Positions 2 through 13,698 of a stretch of 20,170 bases of DNA are shown here, in pieces. How positions within the stretch are numbered: position 1 is the first letter of the stretch; the number at the start of each line of letters is the position of its first letter. The DNA is from a virus, in IMG/VR virus record IMGVR_UViG_3300032047_000187, positions 1 through 20,170 of that record. One strand, written 5' to 3'. The notes beneath the pieces were generated by a model, which saw nothing but the letters and a program-made list of their open reading frames with translations, was not told where the DNA came from and did not search any database. A program made the translations under genes and the position numbers.

Positions 2-2737
2 AGTCAAGATGTCTATTACATGGATTTATATGCTGATGTAAGATATTATACACAGTTTAAGATACATGCAAAAACCTTTGCGCATGGTCACGCAACTAGT
101 AACCCTACTAGTGGTGGTTACCATACGATATTTTACGCATCACCAGCTACAGCTAATATTTCAGATTTTTCTGTAAATCATAATGATCCTTTATTTAGAG
201 GTAATAAAAAATGGCACGCTGGCAACGATGGTAGTGGTACTGGACTCGACGCTGATACAGTAGATGGAATACAAGGTTCAGCTATAATAACAACATCAAA
301 TATAGCTTCTCAAAACGTTAATTCTGCTAATAAAATAGATGGTATTCCCTTTCTTAATACAGGTAGTAACTCCGGAGTTAATGCTGATACTATGGCTCAA
401 AATGGTCATGTGTATTATACAAGTGGAGTTACAAACTTTTCAGGTAATTCAACAGACGGGGGTATATACGCGCAAATATATAATAGCGATTGGCAACATC
501 AAATTGCTGGTGATTACAGATCTGGTCAAATAGCTATAAGAGGTAAAAATAATGGAACGTGGCAGTCTTGGTATAAAGTATGGTCTGAAAATAATGACGG
601 ATCAGGATCTGGATTAGACGCAGATACGCTAGACGGAAGTCAAGCTAGTGCTTTTGCAACACTAAGTGGTTCAAATAGTTTTACTAATTCATACAACGAA
701 TTTGGTAATAATACAGGTGCAGTTAGTAATGATGGAAGTTGGAATGCAAGAGTAAATATTTCTGGTACTTCTCATGCTCGTTTAGATTTATTTGAAGATG
801 CAGATGATTCTAAGTTAAGATTATATGTTCACAGCAACAATAATGCACGAATTGATACAACGTCATCTACAGCTTTAGATTTTGGAACTGCTGGAACGGT
901 AAGAATGACAATACCAGCTGGCAGTGGTGTTGTAACAACAACAGGTCAAGGAACTTTATGGGGATCAGGTAACGACGGTTCAGGTACAGGGCTAGATGCT
1001 GATACATTAGATGGTTACCACAGAACACAGGTAGGAACATTTCAATCAGCAAGTGATTTCGCTGATGGTACATTAGTAACAACAAGTATTGTATCAAGTA
1101 ACACAAATGGAGATTCTTTTGTTATTGAAATTTCTGGTAAAGCATATGGGTCATCAAGGCCACATAAAGTTATAGCAGAAGGGTATATATATAATAACAC
1201 TATAATAAACACTAATGGATCAAACTTAGGAGGCACAAACTTTACGTATCTAAAAGTTATGAACCTTAATGGTAATTTATGTTTTTGGTGGCCAAGACAC
1301 GGTTACTGGAATTCATATGATGTTTATGTAAGAACCGCTAATACAAGTAGTGGTGGAGCTAATCATAATAAAGTTACTGCAATCGCAAACTCTACAGATC
1401 CTTCAAGTGCTACTAAAAAAATTCAAATAAATTTAGGTATGACTTGGACGAGCCATACTGATGGCTCAGGCTCAGGTTTAGATGCTGATACTGTTGATGG
1501 ATTGGAGGTTCACACTGGTACGAACAACGCAGCGAATAAGATAGTTAGAACTGATGGAAATGGATACGCTAATTTTGGTTGGATAAACACGGTATCTGGC
1601 AACTTAGGAACAAGTATTCCCGATAGAATTTATTCTTCAAATGATGGCTATATAAGATACTTAGATTTAGCAAGTTTCCGCTCTGTAATGAACGTAACTG
1701 CAAAAGCTAGTTATCAAGGTCGTGAGCAAAGTACATCAGATACTAACTACTGGATTGGTTCATTAGGATGGGGTACTATAGATTTTAACACAATAGCTCA
1801 TTATGGGTCAGGAAGTATTGATACTTGGAGTAATCCAGGTAATCAACCTTCAGGTACATCTCATTGGGTAGGTAGTCAACATTTACATTATGCGAACGGA
1901 AGTAATTCTTGGTATGGTCAACAAATTGTTGTAGGTGCTGGAGACCCTAGTCTTATGTATGTAAGAGGTGCTTGGGGTGGAACACCGACATCTTGGAGAA
2001 AAATGTGGAACGCAGGTAATGATGGTAGTGGTTCAACGTTAGATGCAGACTTTTTAGATGGGTATGACACCTCGCAAACTGGTGGCGCTAATAGAGTACT
2101 AGTAACTGGATCTAATCAATATTTAAACTTAAACAGCTGGATAAATGTTGCTGGTTCTGGATTATACTCATCCAGTGTAAACGGAGCGCATTTTTATCCA
2201 AACGCAGGTTCTGATTACGGAACATGGAGAATGTCTGGATCAAGAAATGGCTGGAACGGTATCGCATTTAATGATACTAGCGGAAATGCTAACTGTACAC
2301 TAATGGCAGAAACCACAACAATGGGATTGTATAACGATGCAGATAATGAGTGGATGGTTGAAGCTTCAAGAAACGGAGCGGTTTCACTCTACTACAATGG
2401 AGCAGCTAAAATAAGTACAGGTTCTGGAGGTGTTAATGTTACTGGTACTGTAAGCGCTAGTGCGGATGTTATTGCTTATTCAGATGAAAGATTAAAATCA
2501 AATATAAAAACTTTAGATGGTTCTAAGGTTTATGAAATGCGTGGTGTTAGCTTTACTAAAGATGATAAAAAAGGTAGTGGTGTTATAGCTCAAGAGCTAG
2601 AAAAAATAGCACCTGAGTTAGTAAACAATGATAGTGAATTTAAAGCTGTTGCATATGGTAATATAACTGGTTATTTAATTGAAGCTATTAAAGATTTAAA
2701 ACAAGAAGTAGAAGAACTTAAAAAACAAATTAAATAA
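2..2737 (+). CDS. Tail fibre protein, C-terminal part, with S74 intramolecular chaperone domain (5' end outside window)
   Basis: This is a receptor-binding tail fibre or spike. The frame is open from base 2 and the first Met (base 20) has no A-rich leader, so the gene almost certainly begins upstream; residues are numbered here from that Met. The protein is rich in Gly, Asn, Ser and Trp. Five copies of a motif like NDGSGTGLDADTVDG lie at residues 69-83, 192-206, 318-332, 480-494 and 667-681, and segments ending in paired Trp (WQSWYKVW, TSWRKMW) resemble pyocin-knob modules. Residues 821-905 form a Peptidase_S74 domain starting SDERLKSNI, with S821/D822 as the expected catalytic pair, then GVIAQELEKIAPEL and a final short coiled coil. 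In this family the domain drives trimerisation and then cleaves itself off just before the Ser. The gene ends in tandem TAA TAA. Fibre identity is firm; the ligand is unknown. Confidence 0.93.
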   Translation, partial: SQDVYYMDLYADVRYYTQFKIHAKTFAHGHATSNPTSGGYHTIFYASPATANISDFSVNHNDPLFRGNKKWHAGNDGSGTGLDADTVDGIQGSAIITTSNIASQNVNSANKIDGIPFLNTGSNSGVNADTMAQNGHVYYTSGVTNFSGNSTDGGIYAQIYNSDWQHQIAGDYRSGQIAIRGKNNGTWQSWYKVWSENNDGSGSGLDADTLDGSQASAFATLSGSNSFTNSYNEFGNNTGAVSNDGSWNARVNISGTSHARLDLFEDADDSKLRLYVHSNNNARIDTTSSTALDFGTAGTVRMTIPAGSGVVTTTGQGTLWGSGNDGSGTGLDADTLDGYHRTQVGTFQSASDFADGTLVTTSIVSSNTNGDSFVIEISGKAYGSSRPHKVIAEGYIYNNTIINTNGSNLGGTNFTYLKVMNLNGNLCFWWPRHGYWNSYDVYVRTANTSSGGANHNKVTAIANSTDPSSATKKIQINLGMTWTSHTDGSGSGLDADTVDGLEVHTGTNNAANKIVRTDGNGYANFGWINTVSGNLGTSIPDRIYSSNDGYIRYLDLASFRSVMNVTAKASYQGREQSTSDTNYWIGSLGWGTIDFNTIAHYGSGSIDTWSNPGNQPSGTSHWVGSQHLHYANGSNSWYGQQIVVGAGDPSLMYVRGAWGGTPTSWRKMWNAGNDGSGSTLDADFLDGYDTSQTGGANRVLVTGSNQYLNLNSWINVAGSGLYSSSVNGAHFYPNAGSDYGTWRMSGSRNGWNGIAFNDTSGNANCTLMAETTTMGLYNDADNEWMVEASRNGAVSLYYNGAAKISTGSGGVNVTGTVSASADVIAYSDERLKSNIKTLDGSKVYEMRGVSFTKDDKKGSGVIAQELEKIAPELVNNDSEFKAVAYGNITGYLIEAIKDLKQEVEELKKQIK
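224..2062 (+). repeat. Five dispersed in-frame LDADT-DG repeats in the tail fibre
   Basis: Five 45-base units encode the consensus (N/T)DGSG(S/T)GLDAD(T/F)xDG at 224-268, 593-637, 971-1015, 1457-1501 and 2018-2062. The protein is conserved while codons differ, for example TCA GGA TCT against AGT GGT ACT, so these are old repeats kept by selection rather than a recent DNA duplication. They fall between larger modules and look like linkers or turns in the fibre shaft. Spacing is uneven (369, 378, 486 and 561 bases), as if cassettes of different length had been added. Confidence 0.9.
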
Positions 2738-2922: not shown

Positions 2923-3483
2923 ATGGCAGTACCTACTAGTGGAGCTCTAAGCATGGTTAAAATTGCTAGAGAAAGAAAGTATAGTGATTTCAACGGCAGC
3001 CAGAGTATGGGTACTATTTCTATGCGTGATTTAATGGAGGGTGGTAATTCAGGAGGGTCAACAATAAGTTACCCTGCTGTTAACACTGATTCTTGTAATA
3101 ATAATACTTTACCTTTTGGTAGTCAACGTGTAGCTGGTATAACAGAGACAGATACGTATACTGGATGTGGAACTGGTTGCACAATAAGACCGTATATATT
3201 CAATTCATCAGGAACAGACATATCTAATTCAGTGTATGTTTCACCTAGTACAACAATTGCTGATATATACCCTAATGCTGGGCAACCTTATACAAACGTT
3301 GTTTATTATTCTAATCCAAATACGGGTGCTTTATTAGCTAATGGTCAATATTCTGTAGATGTAGTAAGAACTAATAATGGTCAAAGTGGATGCAACTCAT
3401 GTAGTGGTAATGGTAGTTGCTCATCTTTTAATTTCCAAATAACAAATGGAATTCCACAAGCTAGACCAGTTGGAAGTTGTTAA
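2923..3483 (+). CDS. Cysteine-rich putative virion surface protein (186 aa)
   Basis: I do not recognise this protein. The N-terminus MAVPTSGALSMVKIARERK, followed by MGTISMRDLMEGG, resembles leading segments I have seen in tail-associated proteins of Bacteroidota phages. The rest is rich in Gly, Ser, Asn and Thr, as in a beta-structured surface protein. There are seven cysteines, clustered as GCGTGC (about residues 86-91) and GCNSCSGNGSC (about 163-173), with one as the last residue. No membrane segment or signal peptide is visible. It lies five bases after the 57-aa gene and 10 before the next gene, which also ends in Cys. A small adhesin or fibre-tip accessory is the best guess. The cysteines could instead bind metal or form disulphides after release from the cell. 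Confidence 0.6.
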   Translation: MAVPTSGALSMVKIARERKYSDFNGSQSMGTISMRDLMEGGNSGGSTISYPAVNTDSCNNNTLPFGSQRVAGITETDTYTGCGTGCTIRPYIFNSSGTDISNSVYVSPSTTIADIYPNAGQPYTNVVYYSNPNTGALLANGQYSVDVVRTNNGQSGCNSCSGNGSCSSFNFQITNGIPQARPVGSC

Positions 3484-3493
3484 AATATAAAAT

Positions 3494-4123
3494 ATGTTAA
3501 AACCTTATAGATTTTCAGATTTTTACGGATACGATCAAGATTGTGCTAGTTCAACTATACCAACAAGTATTGGTGTAAACGTTAGAGGTATTGAATGGAA
3601 TGGTTTTACAGCAGATGGAACTATTGGTAGTAATGGTGGAGCTAGCGTTACTGCTAGAGGAGTTCTTTATTCATCAACTAATACTTCTCCAACAATAGGT
3701 GGATCAGGTGTTACTCAAATATCTGGTGGTACTGGTACATCAAATTTTTCAATAAATGTACCCGCAGCTGGTAATTTAACTAACTCTACAACTTACTATG
3801 TTAGGATTTATGCTACAAATAGTGTTGGCACAGCTTATTCAACTGTTTTTTCAGTTGAAACTATACGTAGAGCACATGTATTTAAGTATGCTACAGGTAA
3901 GTTTGGTCATTCTTTAGTTTGTAATAGCACTAATACGGTGACTTATTATGCTCAAGCTGATATGTCTATTAATATTGTTTTACAATTACAAGAACCTATT
4001 TACACGTCACCAACACCTAATCACTCTGGTCAACCTAGTGGATTAGTATCTTTATCTGATGGTAACCACAAAGGAAGATGGACTGGATCTGCGTGGCAAT
4101 CAGGATTTACATCAAGTTGTTAA
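3494..4123 (+). CDS. Putative virion surface protein with FN3/Ig-like domain (209 aa)
   Basis: The N-terminus MLKPYRFSDFYGYDQDC leads into an FN3/Ig-like beta-sandwich at about residues 25-123. Its wording (NGGASVTARGVLYSS, STTYYVRIYATNSVGTAYS) closely matches domains common in Bacteroidota surface and secreted proteins, where such domains bind carbohydrate or act as spacers. Residues 128-209 form a second unit with GLVSLSDGNHKGRW and a final FTSSC, resembling C-terminal modules I recall from Bacteroidota phage tail proteins. The protein probably decorates the tail or fibre and helps the phage hold to the host. The start has an A-rich leader (TAAAATATAAAAT), and the methyltransferase gene begins 10 bases after the stop. 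The domain call is good; the role is inferred from domain and neighbourhood. Confidence 0.72.
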   Translation: MLKPYRFSDFYGYDQDCASSTIPTSIGVNVRGIEWNGFTADGTIGSNGGASVTARGVLYSSTNTSPTIGGSGVTQISGGTGTSNFSINVPAAGNLTNSTTYYVRIYATNSVGTAYSTVFSVETIRRAHVFKYATGKFGHSLVCNSTNTVTYYAQADMSINIVLQLQEPIYTSPTPNHSGQPSGLVSLSDGNHKGRWTGSAWQSGFTSSC

Positions 4124-4133
4124 ATATAAAAAC

Positions 4134-4688
4134 ATGGCTATAATAATAAATACAGACAGTATATATAAGGATGATAATATAATAATGCACTCTGATGTTA
4201 CTTTATATTCAGAATCTGCTGCTGATATAATATCAGAAAATGGTGGAAATATACTAGAAATAGGTTTTGGATTAGGAATATCCGCAAATAAAGTGCAAAG
4301 CAATAACCCTGATAAGCATGTAATAATAGAAATAGAAGAAGACATATACAATAAAGCTTTAGAGTGGGCAAGTGGTAAAAGTAATGTAGAAGTTATATTA
4401 GGTGATTGGAAAACAACATTTGGTAATATAACTGACAAATTTGATGGTATATATATGGATGCTGATCAAGATGCTCCAGATGACTTAGAGTCTTTTCCTG
4501 AAAAAGTGAAAAATATATCTAACGATGGGTGTATTTTAATACAAACATCTTGGGGAATGGACAGCGATATACCTAGAAATAAAAATACTTATAAAACAAT
4601 AACGCTAGATGATAATACTAAAAAATGGTATTATGACGATACTTTAGACATAATTTACGTTACATTAACTGATAACGAGTGGGTATAA
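4134..4688 (+). CDS. Class I SAM-dependent methyltransferase, guanidinoacetate/arginine N-methyltransferase-like (184 aa)
   Basis: This is a Rossmann-fold methyltransferase. Motif I is ILEIGFGLGISA (about residues 40-51), continuing ANKVQ. The acidic end of strand 2 is HVIIEIEE, followed by VEVILGDW and FDGIYMD. The string GFG-GI-A-KVQ, then H-IIE, then FDGI matches guanidinoacetate methyltransferase (GAMT) and fungal RMT2 more than DNA methyltransferases, and there is no DPPY or PC motif. GAMT and RMT2 methylate guanidino nitrogens, of guanidinoacetate or of protein arginine; the substrate here is unknown. At 184 aa it is shorter than GAMT (about 236 aa), and the ends differ. I chose ATG 4134 (MAIIINTDS) over in-frame ATG 4059 because it follows ATATAAAAAC and avoids a long overlap with the preceding gene. 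Of 25 Ile codons, 23 are ATA. Sitting among structural genes, it may modify a virion protein, a small metabolite or a host factor. Confidence 0.8.
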   Translation: MAIIINTDSIYKDDNIIMHSDVTLYSESAADIISENGGNILEIGFGLGISANKVQSNNPDKHVIIEIEEDIYNKALEWASGKSNVEVILGDWKTTFGNITDKFDGIYMDADQDAPDDLESFPEKVKNISNDGCILIQTSWGMDSDIPRNKNTYKTITLDDNTKKWYYDDTLDIIYVTLTDNEWV

Positions 4689-5355: not shown

Positions 5356-5551
5356 TATCGGTAAAGATTACAAAAATGAAGCTATGCACTACTCCGTAAG
5401 CCAAGAGGTTTACGGAGGGCATACTATTTGTGATATTATTGAAGAAGACGATAAGTTTAGTATTTATATAAAAAAAGGTGACGAGGTTCTTCCTTGGAAA
5501 GACTTTAATAAAAACATGGCAATAGCTGTAGAATACAATCTTGAGTATTAA
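5333..5551 (+). CDS. Small conserved-looking phage protein (72 aa), function unknown
   Basis: The protein MNLIRKISIGKDYKNEAMHY continues with GGHTICDIIEEDDKFSIYIKKGDEVLPWKDFNKNMAIAVEYNLEY, which reads as a compact beta-rich domain. From memory, small marine phage proteins with RKISIG-DYKN-MHY and a W-K-F-NMP-like end occur beside terminase genes, but no function is known. The ATG lies inside the preceding gene; GAGGA abuts it and is too close to act as a Shine-Dalgarno sequence, so coupling is more likely. Its TAA shares a base with the next ATG (TAATG). The coding sequence contains a strong hairpin at 5392-5417. Later Met codons would remove RKISIG, so the early start is preferred. Confidence 0.7.
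   Translation: MNLIRKISIGKDYKNEAMHYSVSQEVYGGHTICDIIEEDDKFSIYIKKGDEVLPWKDFNKNMAIAVEYNLEY
5392..5417 (+). other. Strong 11-bp hairpin inside a coding sequence
   Basis: CTCCGTAAGCC (5392-5402) and GGTTTACGGAG (5407-5417) pair over 11 bp with a single G-U, closing the four-base loop AAGA. It is unusually GC-rich for its surroundings and lies wholly within the 72-aa gene, about 60 bases after its start. No T-run follows, so it does not look like a terminator. It could act in RNA processing, in translation control, or at the DNA level as a packaging or recognition site near the terminase genes. The structure is plain in the sequence; the role is unknown. Confidence 0.75.
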
Positions 5552-6135
5552 TGCGTGGTTTATATAACTTTGTAGTAAAACCAAAAGGATCAAGATATAA
5601 TAATACTAAAAAAATTGGAGACAAAGAGCTAATATTAAATACTGAAATATTTAGTCACCAATACGTTAACAGAGAAGCAATAGTAATATCAGTGCCAAAA
5701 TTAATATGTACTGATATAAAAGTTGGTGATTCTGTTATAATACATCACAATGTGTTTAGAAGATGGCATGATCAACACGGTAATGAAAGAAATAGTAGAT
5801 CTTATTTCAAAGAAGATCAGTATTTTGTAGCTATAGATCAGATATTTTTGTATAAAAAAAATAATGAATGGTGTAGTTTGCCGGATTATTGTTTTGTAAA
5901 ACCAATTGAATCAAATAGTATTTACGAGGATAAAGAAAAACCTTTAGTCGGTATTGTTAAATACACTAACGGTAAAATTCCTGTAAACAAAAATGATCTT
6001 ATAGGCTTTACTCCAAATAGTGAGTACGAGTTTGTCATAGAAAAAGAAAGATTATATAGAGTTTTATCTAAATTTATTACAATTAAATATGAACACCAAG
6101 GAAAAGAAAAAGAATATAATCCAAGCTGGTTATAG
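5551..6135 (+). CDS. Probable tandem GroES/Cpn10-like co-chaperonin protein (194 aa)
   Basis: Two halves each follow the Cpn10 beta-barrel pattern. In the first (residues 1-102), FVVKPK matches VIVKRK, ELILNTE matches the GIVLTG strand, REAIVISVP the strand before the roof, DIKVGDSVIIHHNVFRRW the VKVGDIVIF strand, and EDQYFVAIDQIFLY the final ESDILAIVE. The second (110-180) has DYCFVKPIE, KPLVGIVKY, NKNDLIGFTPNSEYEFVIEKERLYRV and FITIKYE. GroES caps GroEL during folding, and phage versions such as T4 gp31 help fold the capsid protein. No GroEL is in the window, so it would use the host's. It is twice the usual 95-110 aa. Its start overlaps the previous stop by one base and its end overlaps the next gene by 47 bases. 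It was identified by eye from pattern, so a different barrel protein is possible. Confidence 0.58.
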   Translation: MRGLYNFVVKPKGSRYNNTKKIGDKELILNTEIFSHQYVNREAIVISVPKLICTDIKVGDSVIIHHNVFRRWHDQHGNERNSRSYFKEDQYFVAIDQIFLYKKNNEWCSLPDYCFVKPIESNSIYEDKEKPLVGIVKYTNGKIPVNKNDLIGFTPNSEYEFVIEKERLYRVLSKFITIKYEHQGKEKEYNPSWL

Positions 6136-6364
6136 AGCTGTAGATGAATTAATAAAAGTTGCTAAAGAACCTATAGTAGAAACAGATGATGATATTTCTG
6201 CTGATAGACTTAAAAATGCAGCTGCTACAAAAAAACTAGCGATATTCGATGCCTTTGAAATATTAAATCGTATTGAAGACGAAAAAGCTATTTTAGAAAA
6301 TAAGCCAAAAGAAGAAGTTAAAAAAACTACATTTAGTGGTTTTGCTGAACGAAGATCAAAATAA
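6089..6364 (+). CDS. Putative small terminase subunit or terminase-associated protein (91 aa)
   Basis: This small, mostly helical, highly charged protein begins MNTKEKKKNIIQAGYRAVDE and contains DDDISADRLKNAAATKKLAIFDAFEILNRIEDEK, ending FSGFAERRSK. It lies directly before the large terminase gene with a TAATG one-base overlap, the usual place of the small subunit that recognises phage DNA and regulates the packaging motor. Its size and helical nature fit, but I can see no clear helix-turn-helix, so the name rests on position and on remembered similarity to marine phage proteins beside TerL. The first 47 bases overlap the Cpn10-like gene; no later in-frame ATG keeps the conserved-looking part, so this start is required. 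Confidence 0.6.
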   Translation: MNTKEKKKNIIQAGYRAVDELIKVAKEPIVETDDDISADRLKNAAATKKLAIFDAFEILNRIEDEKAILENKPKEEVKKTTFSGFAERRSK

Positions 6365-8571
6365 TGTACGAGCAGTCTTTATATAAAATAATAGAACCTA
6401 TAAAAATCAATACCATTAAAAGACTTAATAAGTCTAAAAAATGGAAATATGGTTACAATAAAGAAAACGACGTTGTAGTCATAAGTAAAACTGGTGAAAT
6501 AGGTGATATATACGAAATACAAAATCTAAAAATAGCACTACCTAAAACACCAAAAAATCCACACAAATTTGCTAAAGATAAATGGCAAGTAACTTCACAA
6601 CCCAAACAACTACAAAGAATTAAAACTATATTTGACTGGAAAGAGTATCCATCTGATTTTAAAGAAACACATATAGATTACATAGAATCAGAGTTTGAAA
6701 AACGTGAAAATGGTTTTTGGTTTTATAACAAAAGTGTACCAACATATATAACAGGTACACATTATATGTACTTACAATGGAGTAAGATAGATGTAGGTCA
6801 ACCTGATTTTAGAGAAGCTAATAGGTTATTCTATATATTTTGGGAAGCTTGTAAAGCTGATCAAAGATGTTATGGGATGTGTTATCTTAAAAATAGACGA
6901 TCTGGTTTCTCGTTTATGGCATCTGGTGAATTAGTTAACATGGCTACTATATCTAGTGATGCTAGATTTGGTATATTATCTAAAACAGGTCCTGATGCTA
7001 AAAAGATGTTTACAGATAAAGTGGTACCTATATCAGTAAACTATCCTTTCTTTTTTAAACCGATTCAAGATGGTATGGATCGACCTAAAACTGAGTTAGC
7101 ATATAGAGTACCAGCTAGTAAATTAACTAGAAGAAAAATAGAACTTGGTAGTGAAGATAATGATTTAGAAGGATTAGATACAACTATTGACTGGAAAAAT
7201 ACTGGAGATAATAGTTATGATGGTGAAAAGCTAAAAATATTAGCACACGATGAAAGCGGCAAATGGGAAAGGCCTAATAATATATTAAACAATTGGCGTG
7301 TAACAAAAACATGTCTAAGATTAGGTGGTAGAATTATTGGTAAATGCATGATGGGTTCAACGAGCAATGCTCTTGACAAAGGAGGAGATAATTTTAAGAA
7401 AATATATAATGGGTCAGACGTCACAAAAAGAAACCGCAATGGACAGACTAGCTCGGGATTATATAGTTTGTTCATACCTATGGAATGGAATTACGAAGGA
7501 TTCATTGATACTTATGGACACCCTGTATTCGATACGCCAGAAGAAGAAGTGCAAGGACCGTATGATGATGTAATAGATATAGGTATAATAGATCACTGGC
7601 AGAATGAAGCTGATGGTTTAAAAAATGATGGAGATGCTTTAAATGAGTTTTACAGGCAATTTCCAAGAACTGAAGAACATGCTTTCAGAGACGAAACACA
7701 AAATAGTATATTTAATTTAGCTAAGATATACGAGCAAATAGATTACAATGAAGAGGTTAGTGCGCCTATAACTCAAGGTAATTTTCAATGGGTTAACGGC
7801 GTAAAAGATACTAAAGTTATATTTTATCCAGATAACAAAGGTAGGTTTAAAGTTAGTTGGACACCTAAGTTTCAACAGCAAAATAACTTTATAACTAAAA
7901 ACGGAATGAAATACCCAGCTAATGAACACATGGGTGCTTTTGGTTGTGATAGTTATGATATATCAGGAACTGTTGATGGTAAAGGTTCTAAAGGATCTTT
8001 ACATGGTTTAACAAAGTTTAGTATGGAAGATTGTCCACCTAATCATTTTTTCTTAGAATACATAGCTAGACCTCAAACGTCCGAGATATTCTTTGAGGAC
8101 GTTCTAATGGCTTTATTCTTTTACGGGATGCCTTTACTAGCTGAAAACAATAAACCTCGTCTATTGTACTATTTAAGAAGGCGTGGATACAGAGGTTATT
8201 CAATGAATAGGCCAGATAAAATATGGAATAAATTATCTACAGCAGAAAAAGAAGTAGGTGGAATACCTAACTCAAGTGAGGATATAAAACAAGCACATGC
8301 TGCTGCAATTGAAATGTATATACAAGATCATGTTGGTATGAAGAGAGATGGTACGCATGGTGATATATACTTTAATAGCACTTTAAGTGATTGGGCTAAG
8401 TTTGATATAAATAATAGAACAAAGTTTGATGCTGCTATTAGTTCAGGTTTAGCGATAATGGCTTGTAATAAAAACTTATACAGACCAAACGCAGAAATAA
8501 GAAGAGAAAAAGTAAATATAAGTATAGCTAAGTATAAAAATAAAGGTATGCGATCAAAATTAATAGAATAA
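6364..8571 (+). CDS. terL: Terminase large subunit (TerL), DNA-packaging ATPase/nuclease (735 aa)
   Basis: This is the motor that pumps DNA into the prohead and cuts the concatemer. The ATPase half has a Walker A-position segment, CYLKNRRSGFSF (about residues 173-184), then GILSKTG, Walker B KILAHDE (291-297) with D296/E297, and a coupling motif GSTSN (331-335). The nuclease half starts at FGCDSYD (D529 as first metal ligand), continues HFFLEYI (about 561-567), and carries a late acidic ligand at D689 in TKFDAAISSGLAIMA. The P-loop is odd: the usual GK(S/T) is replaced by GFS, so its lysine is missing or displaced. At 735 aa it is longer than many terminases (450-650), with an N-terminal extension of about 100 residues. 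It is followed two bases later by the portal gene, the classic pairing. Confidence 0.92.
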   Translation: MYEQSLYKIIEPIKINTIKRLNKSKKWKYGYNKENDVVVISKTGEIGDIYEIQNLKIALPKTPKNPHKFAKDKWQVTSQPKQLQRIKTIFDWKEYPSDFKETHIDYIESEFEKRENGFWFYNKSVPTYITGTHYMYLQWSKIDVGQPDFREANRLFYIFWEACKADQRCYGMCYLKNRRSGFSFMASGELVNMATISSDARFGILSKTGPDAKKMFTDKVVPISVNYPFFFKPIQDGMDRPKTELAYRVPASKLTRRKIELGSEDNDLEGLDTTIDWKNTGDNSYDGEKLKILAHDESGKWERPNNILNNWRVTKTCLRLGGRIIGKCMMGSTSNALDKGGDNFKKIYNGSDVTKRNRNGQTSSGLYSLFIPMEWNYEGFIDTYGHPVFDTPEEEVQGPYDDVIDIGIIDHWQNEADGLKNDGDALNEFYRQFPRTEEHAFRDETQNSIFNLAKIYEQIDYNEEVSAPITQGNFQWVNGVKDTKVIFYPDNKGRFKVSWTPKFQQQNNFITKNGMKYPANEHMGAFGCDSYDISGTVDGKGSKGSLHGLTKFSMEDCPPNHFFLEYIARPQTSEIFFEDVLMALFFYGMPLLAENNKPRLLYYLRRRGYRGYSMNRPDKIWNKLSTAEKEVGGIPNSSEDIKQAHAAAIEMYIQDHVGMKRDGTHGDIYFNSTLSDWAKFDINNRTKFDAAISSGLAIMACNKNLYRPNAEIRREKVNISIAKYKNKGMRSKLIE

Positions 8572-8573
8572 AA

Positions 8574-11000
8574 ATGGCAGAATCAGTTACAAAAGGTTAT
8601 TTTCCAAGTCAGGTTGTCAGCGATCAAGAGAAGGCTAGTCTTGAATATGGTTTAAAAGTCGGTAGAGCCATAGAGTCAGAGTGGTTTAAACGTGATTCTG
8701 GTACTAATAGATTTTATAATAATCAAAATGAGTTTCATAAGTTAAGGTTATATGCTCGTGGAGAACAAAGTATACAAAAATATAAAGATGAATTATCTAT
8801 AAATGGTGATTTATCATACCTTAATTTAGACTGGAAGCCAGTACCTATTATACCTAAGTTTGTAGATATAGTAGTTAATGGCATGGCTGAAAGAACTTAT
8901 GATATAAAAGCATACTCTCAAGATCCTTATGGAATGAGTAAAAGAACAGCTTATATGGAATCAATATTAAGAGATATTGAAACAAAAGAGCTTATAACTT
9001 TTGCACAAGATTCTTTAGGTATATCATTACAAGAAAATGCACCTGAAACTCTACCTGATAGTGAAGAGGAATTAAACTTACACATGCAGCTTAGTTATAA
9101 ACAAGAAGTTGAAATAGCAGAAGAACAAGCTATTACTACAATATTAACTGGTAATAAGTTTGAAGAGACAAGAAAAAGATTATACTACGATTTAACAACT
9201 CTTGGTATAGCTTGTGTTAAAGACAAGTTTACAACTTCAGAAGGTATAAAAGTAGAGTATGTTGATCCTGCTAATATAGTTTACTCATATACTGAATCAC
9301 CTTATTTTGAGGATTTATATTACGTTGGAGAAGTTAAAACTCTACCAATAAATGAACTTAAAAAAGAATTTCCTGGTTTAGATGAAGGTGAGTTGCAAAG
9401 AATAATAAAACAACCAAACCAAAAATCTAACTTACATTATAGAACAGCAGCACAAAACGATAACGAAGATAAAAACACTATAGAAGTTTTATATTTTAAT
9501 TATAAAACCTATATGAATGAAGTTTATAAAGTAAAAGATACTATTAGTGGAGCTACTAAAGTTATAATGCGTGATGATACATTTGACCCACCTATTGAGG
9601 CTTACGAAGCTCAGTTCGGTAAAATGAAAAGATCTTTAGAGGTTTTATATGAAGGTGTTTTAATTTTAGGTACTGATAAACTTTTAAAATGGGAGTTAGC
9701 TAAAAACATGATGAGACCTAAAAGTGATTACACTAAGGTTAAAATGAATTATAATATAGTAGCACCAAGGTTGTACAAAGGTAAAATAGAATCTTTAGTT
9801 GGTAGAATAACTGGTTTTGCTGATATGATTCAGTTAACACATTTAAAGCTACAACAAGTAATGGCTAGGATGGTTCCTGATGGTGTTTATTTAGATGCTG
9901 ATGGTTTAGCTGAAATAGATTTAGGTAATGGAACTAATTACAATCCACAAGAAGCATTAAATATGTTCTTTCAAACTGGATCTGTTATAGGTAGATCTTT
10001 TACTTCAGAAGGAGATATGAATCCAGGTAAAATACCTATTCAAGAAATAACATCTGGAAATGGTGGTGGTAAAATACAAAGCTTAATTGCTAATTACAAT
10101 TATTATTTACAGATGATAAGAGATGTAACTGGTTTAAATGAGTCCAGAGATGGTAGCACGCCTGATGCTAAAGCTTTAGTTGGTGTTCAAAAACTAGCTG
10201 CTGCTAATAGTAACACGGCTACAAGGCATATATTAAATTCTGGTTTATATCTTACAGCAGAAGTTGCTGAGTCTATATCTTTAAGAATATCTGATATATT
10301 AGAATATTCTCCTACAAGAGATGCTTTTATACAGAAAATCGGTGGTCACAATGTCGGTACATTACAAGATGTTGCTGAGTTACACCTATATGATTTTGGT
10401 ATATTTTTAGAAATATCACCAGATGAAGAAGAAAAACAAATGTTAGAAAATAACATTCAAGTTGCTTTAGCTCAAAAAATGATTGAGCTTGACGATGCAA
10501 TTGACCTTAGAGTTATAAAGAACGTGAAGCTAGCAAATCAATTATTGAAAGTTAGAAGAAAAAAGAAACAAGAGAGAGATCAATTGTTACAAGAAAAAAA
10601 TATACAAACTCAAGCTCAAGCTAATGCACAAGCTCAACAAGTAGCTGCTCAAGCTGAGGTACAAAAAAGTCAAGCTTTAATACAAAGTCAAATGCAATTG
10701 GAGCAAGGCAAAGCTCAATTAGAAAATCAAAAGTTAATACAAGAAGCTGCTATTAAAAAAGAACTTATGAATCATGAATTTATGATCAACATGAGATTGA
10801 AAAATATGGAGCTTAATGTTAACAAGCAGAAAGAAGATGGAAAAGAAGATCGTAAAGATGAACGTACTAGAATACAAGCTAGTCAACAATCTGAATTAAT
10901 AGATCAAAGAAATAACAATAAACCACCTAAAAAGTTTGAATCTATGGGTAATGATAGTTTAGGTGACCTAGGTAATCTAGGTATGTTTAACCCTAGATAA
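8574..11000 (+). CDS. Portal protein (808 aa)
   Basis: The portal is a dodecameric ring at one capsid vertex. It nucleates head assembly, docks the terminase and is the DNA channel. Evidence is its place directly after TerL and before scaffold and capsid genes, its size, and portal-like features: LDWKPVPIIPKFVDIVVNGMAERTYDI at about residues 85-111 (wing/stem region), a central beta-rich section (VKDKFTTSEGIKVEYVDPANIVYSY), and GKIESLVGRITGFADMIQLTHLKLQQVMARM leading into the crown. Residues 650-780 are a Gln/Ala/Lys-rich predicted coiled coil (TQAQANAQAQQVAAQAEVQ), which may form a long internal barrel as in P22. The C-terminus (NDSLGDLGNLGMFNPR) looks flexible. The protein is long for a portal. 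The leader AATAGAATAAAA has no Shine-Dalgarno sequence. Confidence 0.88.
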   Translation: MAESVTKGYFPSQVVSDQEKASLEYGLKVGRAIESEWFKRDSGTNRFYNNQNEFHKLRLYARGEQSIQKYKDELSINGDLSYLNLDWKPVPIIPKFVDIVVNGMAERTYDIKAYSQDPYGMSKRTAYMESILRDIETKELITFAQDSLGISLQENAPETLPDSEEELNLHMQLSYKQEVEIAEEQAITTILTGNKFEETRKRLYYDLTTLGIACVKDKFTTSEGIKVEYVDPANIVYSYTESPYFEDLYYVGEVKTLPINELKKEFPGLDEGELQRIIKQPNQKSNLHYRTAAQNDNEDKNTIEVLYFNYKTYMNEVYKVKDTISGATKVIMRDDTFDPPIEAYEAQFGKMKRSLEVLYEGVLILGTDKLLKWELAKNMMRPKSDYTKVKMNYNIVAPRLYKGKIESLVGRITGFADMIQLTHLKLQQVMARMVPDGVYLDADGLAEIDLGNGTNYNPQEALNMFFQTGSVIGRSFTSEGDMNPGKIPIQEITSGNGGGKIQSLIANYNYYLQMIRDVTGLNESRDGSTPDAKALVGVQKLAAANSNTATRHILNSGLYLTAEVAESISLRISDILEYSPTRDAFIQKIGGHNVGTLQDVAELHLYDFGIFLEISPDEEEKQMLENNIQVALAQKMIELDDAIDLRVIKNVKLANQLLKVRRKKKQERDQLLQEKNIQTQAQANAQAQQVAAQAEVQKSQALIQSQMQLEQGKAQLENQKLIQEAAIKKELMNHEFMINMRLKNMELNVNKQKEDGKEDRKDERTRIQASQQSELIDQRNNNKPPKKFESMGNDSLGDLGNLGMFNPR
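10611..10676 (+). repeat. CAAGCT-rich low-complexity stretch in the portal gene
   Basis: CAAGCT occurs at 10611, 10617, 10629, 10650 and 10671, together with CTCAA and GCTCAA variants, and encodes Gln-Ala runs of the predicted C-terminal coiled coil. The units stay in frame, so length change by slippage or unequal recombination would lengthen or shorten the helix without breaking the gene. Confidence 0.6.
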
Positions 11001-12270: not shown

Positions 12271-13698
12271 ATGGGAGCATTTGCTGGAACTGGTGCGGAA
12301 CTATCGCACTTAACTCCGAGACCGAATAAGACATTATTTGGTTCAAATTACTTAAGCATCTCAGGCAACGATTTTAATTTCACAAAACAATTCCTACCGG
12401 AAGTTTATGAAAAAGAAGTCGAAAGATACGGAAATAGAACAATTTCTGGATTTTTAGCTATGGTTGGTGCTGAAATGCCTATGGCTTCTGACGAAGTCGT
12501 ATGGTCAGAACAAGGTAGAATTCACGTTGCTTACGACGATGTCGTAGGTACTGACGTTTCTGCTAACTTACTAACTTTTTCTGCTGCACACTTAATTAAC
12601 GTTGGTGATACTATCATCGTTAGTAAAGGTGGTGCAACTTTAAAATGTTATGTATCTGCTGTGCCTAGTGCAACTACTATAACAGCTCAACCTTATACTG
12701 CTGCTGATATTTCTGGTATCGGTTCTGATGGGGTATCTGCTGTAAAAGTATTTGTATACGGTTCAGAATATGCAAAAGGATCAAGTAACGCTGGTAACAA
12801 AAAAGACGCTACGTTTACTTCTTTCTCTAATAAGCCAATTATTTTGAGAGACAAGTATAGCGTAAACGGATCTGACACTGCTCAGATTGGTTGGGTTGAA
12901 GTTGCTACTGAAGCTGGTACTTCTGGATATTTATGGTACTTAAAATCTGAGCATGAAGCAAGGATTAGATTTGAAGATCAATTAGAAATGGCTATGATTG
13001 AAGCTGAGAAAAAAGCAGGTTCATCTGCAATTTCTGCTTCAGGTATTTCTGGATCTGAAGGTTTATTCGCTGCTATCACGTCTAGAGGTTTAGTATATAA
13101 CAACGCTGATTTTGATGACCCAGTATCTTCTGGTGTTCATGAAGGTTTAGCTGAGTTTGATTCTATCTTACAAGAACTTGATAAGCAAGGTTCTATTGAA
13201 GAAAACATGATGTTCTTAGACAGAGCTACAACTCTTTCTATTGACAACATGCTTGCTGCTCAAAATTCTTACGGTACAGGTGGTACTTCTTATGGTGTTT
13301 TTAATAACTCTGAGGAAATGGCGTTAAATTTAGGTTTCTCTGGATTCAGAAGAGGTTCTTATGACTTCTACAAAACTGACTGGAAATACTTAAATGACTC
13401 TACTACTAGAGGACTTGTAGCTGATATTGAAGGTGTTATCGTTCCTGCTGGAACTTCAACAGTTTACGATCAGATTATGGGTAAAAACATCCAAAGACCA
13501 TTCTTACACGTTAGATATAGAGCATCTGAAGCTGACGATAGAAGAATGAAATCTTGGATCACTGGATCTGTAGGTGGTAACTTTACAAGCGACGAAGACG
13601 CTATGAACGTTCATTTCTTATCTGAGAGATGTCTATGTGTTCAAGCTGCTAACAACTTTGTATTGTTAAAGTCTACTGATGGTGTACAAGGTGACTAA
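12271..13698 (+). CDS. Major capsid protein (475 aa)
   Basis: This is the main shell subunit, expected to have the HK97 fold. Evidence is its place straight after the scaffold gene, its size, and its layout. There is an N-arm (PNKTLFGSNYLSISGNDFNFTKQFLPEVYEKEVERY) and a beta-rich insertion at about residues 93-165 (LINVGDTIIVSKGGATLKCYV, SAVKVFVYGSE), which may form a surface bump. A spine-helix-like region is LKSEHEARIRFEDQLEMAMIEAEKK (about 225-249), and an A-domain-like end is RPFLHVRYRASEADDRRMKSWITGSVGG. Expression signals are strong: an A-rich leader, a terminator right behind, and codon use unlike most other genes here, with only one ATA among 25 Ile codons. No propeptide cleavage site or protease partner is evident. 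The name rests on context and pattern rather than on a search. Confidence 0.85.
   Translation: MGAFAGTGAELSHLTPRPNKTLFGSNYLSISGNDFNFTKQFLPEVYEKEVERYGNRTISGFLAMVGAEMPMASDEVVWSEQGRIHVAYDDVVGTDVSANLLTFSAAHLINVGDTIIVSKGGATLKCYVSAVPSATTITAQPYTAADISGIGSDGVSAVKVFVYGSEYAKGSSNAGNKKDATFTSFSNKPIILRDKYSVNGSDTAQIGWVEVATEAGTSGYLWYLKSEHEARIRFEDQLEMAMIEAEKKAGSSAISASGISGSEGLFAAITSRGLVYNNADFDDPVSSGVHEGLAEFDSILQELDKQGSIEENMMFLDRATTLSIDNMLAAQNSYGTGGTSYGVFNNSEEMALNLGFSGFRRGSYDFYKTDWKYLNDSTTRGLVADIEGVIVPAGTSTVYDQIMGKNIQRPFLHVRYRASEADDRRMKSWITGSVGGNFTSDEDAMNVHFLSERCLCVQAANNFVLLKSTDGVQGD

Follow-up and report, generated by a model that had tools for sequence, protein, structure and literature searches.

A GAMT/RMT2-branch methyltransferase in the tail module of a flavobacterial-type phage and its possible role in tail protein modification

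The window analyzed here is a virus fragment of 20,170 bases and represents a whole record. Its gene order runs from the C-terminus of an S74-type tail fiber through two small proteins, a methyltransferase, and small ORFs to a GroES-like gene, followed by terminase, portal, and capsid genes. The features are as follows:

2..2737, plus strand: tail fiber, C-terminal part with a Peptidase_S74 intramolecular chaperone (PF13884, 3.3e-11; many PHROG tail-fiber matches)
2923..3483, plus strand: small tail-module protein of 186 aa with no assigned function; position conserved in the window clade
3494..4123, plus strand: small tail-module protein of 209 aa with no assigned function; conserved position directly 5' of the methyltransferase
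4134..4688, plus strand: class I SAM-dependent methyltransferase of the GAMT/RMT2 branch, 184 aa
4749..5045, plus strand: 98-aa ORF with no assigned function
5551..6135, plus strand: GroES-like co-chaperonin (phrog_13932, 1.2e-18)
6364..8571, plus strand: terminase large subunit (phrog_6681, 9.4e-168)
8574..11000, plus strand: portal protein (phrog_6547, 5.1e-154)
12271..13698, plus strand: major virion structural (capsid-type) protein (phrog_13704, 1.4e-102)

The large terminase subunit is 45 to 62% identical to those of Flavobacterium, Cellulophaga, Tenacibaculum, and Maribacter phages and of MW202828, which points to a flavobacterial-type marine phage as the source of the window. MW202828 has no methyltransferase gene between its fiber and its GroES-like gene. 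In the window, the GroES-like gene separates the tail module from the terminase. The capsid-type protein matches a Crassvirus major capsid model weakly and below threshold (8.4e-4), which hints at a distant crAss-like kinship of this flavophage group.

The methyltransferase ORF contains ILEIGFGLGISANKVQ, HVIIEIEE, VEVILGDW, and FDGIYMD in that order, exactly as the first-pass annotation had quoted them. An alternative, longer reading could start from an ATG at position 4059, and the start at 4134 is the one common to loci L010 and L011. Six viral loci (four aligned over their full length, the near-identical L001, and the truncated L004) form what we call the window clade, with 82 to 99% identity and the same neighbors wherever sequence covers them. 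Since these homologues keep synteny and their pairwise dN/dS values lie between 0.11 and 0.17, the ORF is beyond chance: it is real and under purifying selection.

Curated libraries cannot place the protein, because its matches there are generic and below threshold (RrnaAD, Methyltransf_25, TrmB, and ksgA) and no PHROG matches it. Searches against the PDB gave a clear-cut answer. With the single sequence, GAMT chains occupied the top four ranks (1.2e-10 to 9.5e-9), with the next family at 6.7e-4; a six-sequence profile (A1) reached GAMT at 1.8e-14, and a profile of canonical phage relatives (A3) at 1.9e-29, with the next family at 0.0068. The AlphaFold model of the window enzyme (pLDDT 89) aligned to GAMT structures with Z scores of 19.5 to 21.1 (at best 178 residues at an rmsd of 2.6), compared with 15.7 for the best non-GAMT fold, and Foldseek scored GAMT at 7.0e-13 versus 3.5e-6 for other folds. 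Sequence, profile, and predicted fold thus firmly assign the window enzyme to the GAMT/RMT2 branch, as the first-pass annotation had proposed in preference to a DNA methyltransferase; two of the checks it had named, a structure prediction against GAMT and a profile search for a rival family, came out in favor of GAMT. Neither DNA nor FkbM nor O-methyltransferase families competed in sequence, profile, or fold, and no DNA methyltransferase family was matched by the window protein in Pfam, PHROGs, or NCBIfam. Similarly, the PRMT family was absent among the Pfam and NCBIfam matches of 51 family members. RMT2 and GAMT belong to the same methyltransferase branch, and RMT2 carries N-terminal ankyrin-like repeats. 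No ankyrin repeat was matched in the window enzyme, whose 184 aa correspond to the methyltransferase domain alone.

We then mapped the residues of the active site:

4197..4199, plus strand: V22, at the position of GAMT Glu45; Val only in the six loci of the window clade
4251..4271, plus strand: SAM-binding motif I, ILEIGFG (residues 40 to 46); E-x-G-x-G invariant in 54 aligned phage relatives
4329..4331, plus strand: E66, the acidic end of strand 2 (HVIIEIEE), invariant in 54 aligned phage relatives
4407..4409, plus strand: W92 of the GDW motif, a signature of the GAMT branch, equivalent to W116 of rat GAMT; Trp in 120/120 viral and 58/58 bacterial relatives
4458..4460, plus strand: D109, the equivalent of the catalytic GAMT Asp134; Asp in 120/120 viral relatives

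As in class I methyltransferases generally, E66 is expected to contact the SAM ribose. In GAMT (1xcj), Glu45 holds the guanidinium group, and Asp134 is the second acid of the site. The latter takes up the proton of the substrate (PMC12471008). The SAM motif E-x-G-x-G, the GxW motif, and the catalytic Asp are all present in the window enzyme, but the guanidine-binding Glu45 is replaced by Val22. Among 120 non-redundant viral loci, this position is Glu at 113 and Asp at one, and the six loci with Val are exactly the window clade. V22 was paired with Glu45 by sequence alignment, which is gapless from M18 to G37; the neighboring D21 might compensate for the missing Glu. The first-pass annotation had held that losing the active-site acids of GAMT would speak against its proposal, and the outcome is split, with Asp134 kept as D109 and Glu45 changed to Val22. 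Given this loss of Glu45, we do not class the window enzyme as a GAMT enzyme proper. Most bacterial relatives hold Gln and His at the two acid positions, so these acids do change within the branch. Among them is a flavobacterial chromosomal GAMT-like family of 262 aa (L111, L115, L118, L120-L122, L124, L126, L127, L130-L132, L134, L138, and most of L144-L155), in which Gln (or Leu) and His replace both catalytic acids. Two copies of the methyltransferase (L025 and L026) occur in tandem, the first of which has Asp at the Glu45 position.

How widespread is this family? Scans of viral contigs returned 218 relatives and then at least 550, while 50,697 named phage records held one clear relative only, encoded by the 634-kb LR745206 directly after two long tail-fiber-like ORFs. 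The family is thus widespread in uncultured, mostly marine phages and nearly absent from named ones. A Vibrio phage "methyltransferase" match (H23) was set aside: it is weak (9e-4) and divergent and lies beside an integrase and host-like genes, outside a tail module. In the tree, the viral sequences group together (SH-aLRT 88), including one rumen MAG sequence and L095, and the window clade sits inside this group on a long stem of 1.07 changes per column. The bacterial relatives include domains embedded in nonribosomal peptide synthetases (NRPSs) as well as the flavobacterial chromosomal family; at six loci (L113, L116, L128, L135, L137, and L148), GAMT-like stretches lie within ORFs of about 1,200 aa that resemble NRPS modules. 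A subfamily with an MHxGE or MHxCE motif (L017-L022, L030-L036, L070, L076, and L078) adjoins ORFs that resemble 2OG-Fe(II) oxygenases, SGNH hydrolases, and sulfotransferases (weakly annotated or judged by eye), not the carbohydrate-binding module (CBM)-like partner described below. A literature search of open-licence papers found nothing on a phage-encoded arginine methyltransferase or a phage GAMT.

The first-pass annotation had described the methyltransferase as lying between surface-protein and packaging genes, and the window bears this out, with the S74 tail fiber upstream and the GroES-like, terminase, portal, and capsid genes downstream. It had also regarded this placement as an oddity, whereas it is in fact a family-wide pattern. 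Upstream of the enzyme, 78/120 non-redundant viral loci have an ORF of 300 aa or longer on the same strand, with 10 more cut by the contig end, and the representatives tested mostly matched tail-fiber PHROGs. Furthermore, a CBM-like protein adjoins the enzyme in 91/120 loci, downstream in 87 (a family of about 228 aa) and upstream in 4, and the four upstream partner domains are homologous to the downstream family (hhalign 98.7%). The downstream partner starts between -13 and +5 relative to the stop of the enzyme, mostly at -1 or 0. It has no Pfam family match, and no homologues were found in named phages. Its predicted structure (pLDDT 88) most resembles a chondroitin-sulfate CBM (8wab, Z 16.0) and an alginate CBM (7vbo, Z 13.9; next fold 10.0), so that we predict a CBM-like polysaccharide-binding fold and regard the partner as a candidate glycan binder. 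No such partner was found in 29/120 enzyme loci, the window clade among them. We rejected the possibility that the neighbors at 2923-4123 are disguised copies of this partner, as hhalign gave a probability of 0.1.

Next, we asked whether any partner residue tracks the presence of the enzyme. A first reciprocal scan with a partner pattern (A7) yielded 66 loci with room upstream, 50 with the enzyme and 16 without. Across all partner columns, Arg49-Gly50 was by far the most enzyme associated (difference 0.75; next unrelated column 0.47), with Arg in 87/87 partners with the enzyme and 4/16 without it (5/16 if the loop is shifted by eye). In a set extended by a further scan (A8), in which Arg49 was called by regular expression and four positives were settled by eye, Arg was found in 94/94 partners beside an enzyme and 7/26 without one. 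The patterns of both scans leave out Arg49. Several enzyme-free partners have Lys at this position, and R58, F63, D108, and D159 are invariant both with and without the enzyme. For the 16 enzyme-free loci of the first scan, no hidden enzyme was detected in the whole records, a search that had no positive control and covered records that are possibly fragments. In the model, Arg49-Gly50 forms the two-residue turn at the tip of a beta-hairpin between strands 37-48 and 51-64. Mapped onto the tree, presence of the enzyme switches about 11 times and presence of the Arg 8 times, and no contrast runs counter to the association; using well-supported branches only, the phylogenetic correction leaves six independent contrasts, three for the association, none against it, and three neutral (p 0.25), too few for a test with adequate power. 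The association between Arg49 and the enzyme is hence suggestive, not established. It suggests that the enzyme of the relatives may methylate Arg49 of the partner; alternatively, Arg49 could be a glycan-binding residue that was lost in divergent proteins. Five enzyme-free CBM-like tail proteins (L282, L284, L285, L290, and L303) carry a strongly basic terminal stretch of the RRRRR type, which sets them apart from the enzyme-associated ones.

It is tempting to combine these observations into one reading, to which we give a probability of roughly 45%: the enzyme would be a SAM-dependent N-methyltransferase from the GAMT/RMT2 branch, encoded by a late phage gene, and its substrate would be a host-contacting tail protein made by the same module, with Arg49 of the partner as the target in the relatives and a changed target in the window clade. 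In the relatives, the enzyme would be co-translated with its CBM-like tail partner and would probably methylate the guanidino group of the hairpin-tip Arg49, with Glu45 and Asp134 gripping the guanidinium and Asp134 taking up the proton. In the window clade, the SAM site and the catalytic Asp would have been retained, and the Glu (to Val) and the partner lost. With one of the two guanidinium-gripping acids missing and no partner alongside, the window enzyme probably has another target within its own module, either a different residue or a different protein, which might be the fiber or one of the two small proteins at 2923-4123. An "ARG" tripeptide in the 3494-4123 product was considered as a target and dropped, being SKG in L011. 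The earlier suggestion of an arginine substrate on a virion protein is therefore well motivated in the relatives, by the cassette and the tracking partner Arg, and weakened for the window copy, by Val22 and the lack of a partner. Against modification of a tail protein as set out here stand the few independent contrasts left by the phylogenetic correction (p 0.25), the Arg-Gly kept by 7/26 enzyme-free partners, the lack of the CBM-like partner at 29/120 enzyme loci (window clade included), and the missing Glu for gripping a guanidinium in the window enzyme. Late expression might also by itself account for the co-localization in a late operon.

The best-surviving alternative, though in our view unlikely, concerns the window clade: its enzyme may act on a non-guanidino group (Lys, an N-terminal amine, His, a glycan, or a small molecule), the loss of Glu45 having opened the pocket and Asp109 serving as the base for another nucleophile. 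Such a switch would fit the fixation of Val in 6/6 window-clade loci despite purifying selection, the long stem of the clade within the viral group, and the chromosomal flavobacterial relatives, whose change of both acids (mostly to Gln and His) argues that the branch switches substrates. However, Asp134 and the remaining fold are unaltered, and D21 beside V22 might replace the Glu. Less plausible still, in our view, is that the target of the family during infection is a host protein or a free guanidino metabolite, with the tail-module position only setting late timing. Among the closest characterized relatives, GAMT does act on small molecules and RMT2 on a host protein, and methylated host peptides increase during Cellulophaga phage infection (PMC13288928), but neither the near-touching coding with one tail-partner family in 87/120 loci nor a partner Arg that tracks the enzyme would be expected. 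Finally, a non-catalytic tail-fiber assembly chaperone that retains the methyltransferase fold would suit the lost Glu45 and the fact that dedicated chaperones are common beside fiber genes, yet it is very improbable, because the SAM motif, E66, D109, and W92 are invariant family-wide, beyond what a scaffold needs.

The family can be compared with known systems. GAMT (PDB 3orh, 1xcj, and 1khh), the best match in sequence, profile, and fold, shares with the window enzyme the SAM motif, GxW, and the catalytic Asp134, and with most phage relatives also Glu45 within a V-M-x-x-W-E motif. In contrast, the window enzyme is shorter, has Val22 for Glu45, and lies in a phage tail module, where creatine synthesis is implausible. 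The fungal RMT2-type arginine delta-N-methyltransferases offer the analogy of a protein arginine substrate and differ by their ankyrin repeats. Bacterial GAMT-like enzymes (L095-L155, comprising NRPS-embedded, 262-aa flavobacterial, and 328-aa chlamydial ones) share the signatures V/I-M-x-x-W-E/Q, GxW, and FDGI-x-x-D/H with the phage family, but, apart from L095 and one rumen MAG sequence, they are separate from the phage group, and they have other contexts and vary in their active-site acids. BlsL, a guanidine methyltransferase, has low similarity to GAMT (PMC5572114). The CBM modules 8wab and 7vbo resemble the fold predicted for the partner that accompanies most relatives; unlike them, this partner belongs to a tail module and has Arg-Gly at its hairpin tip, and it is absent from the window. 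Independent support that such modification exists comes from Cellulophaga phages, marine and flavobacterial like the window phage, for which the first report of phage virion protein methylation appeared in 2026: in free virions, Arg and Lys residues of structural and tail-fiber proteins are methylated, including Arg23 and Arg580 in the phi18:1 tail fiber (PMC13288928). That study credits host enzymes, as its authors know of no such enzyme encoded by these phages (PMC13288928).

For virion methylation, the family thus offers candidates at three levels: an enzyme encoded by the phage, its substrate, and the single residue modified. As a wider and more tentative proposal, a large lineage of mainly marine uncultured phages may use a dedicated GAMT-branch protein-arginine methyltransferase to mark the Arg-Gly tip of its own carbohydrate-binding tail protein, with the window clade having since switched its target residue. 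If true, this would amount to self-modification of the receptor-binding apparatus, with a possible effect on adsorption: phages would tune their adhesins post-translationally, which bears on host recognition at sea, and the window clade would provide a naturally occurring test case of a switch in substrate.
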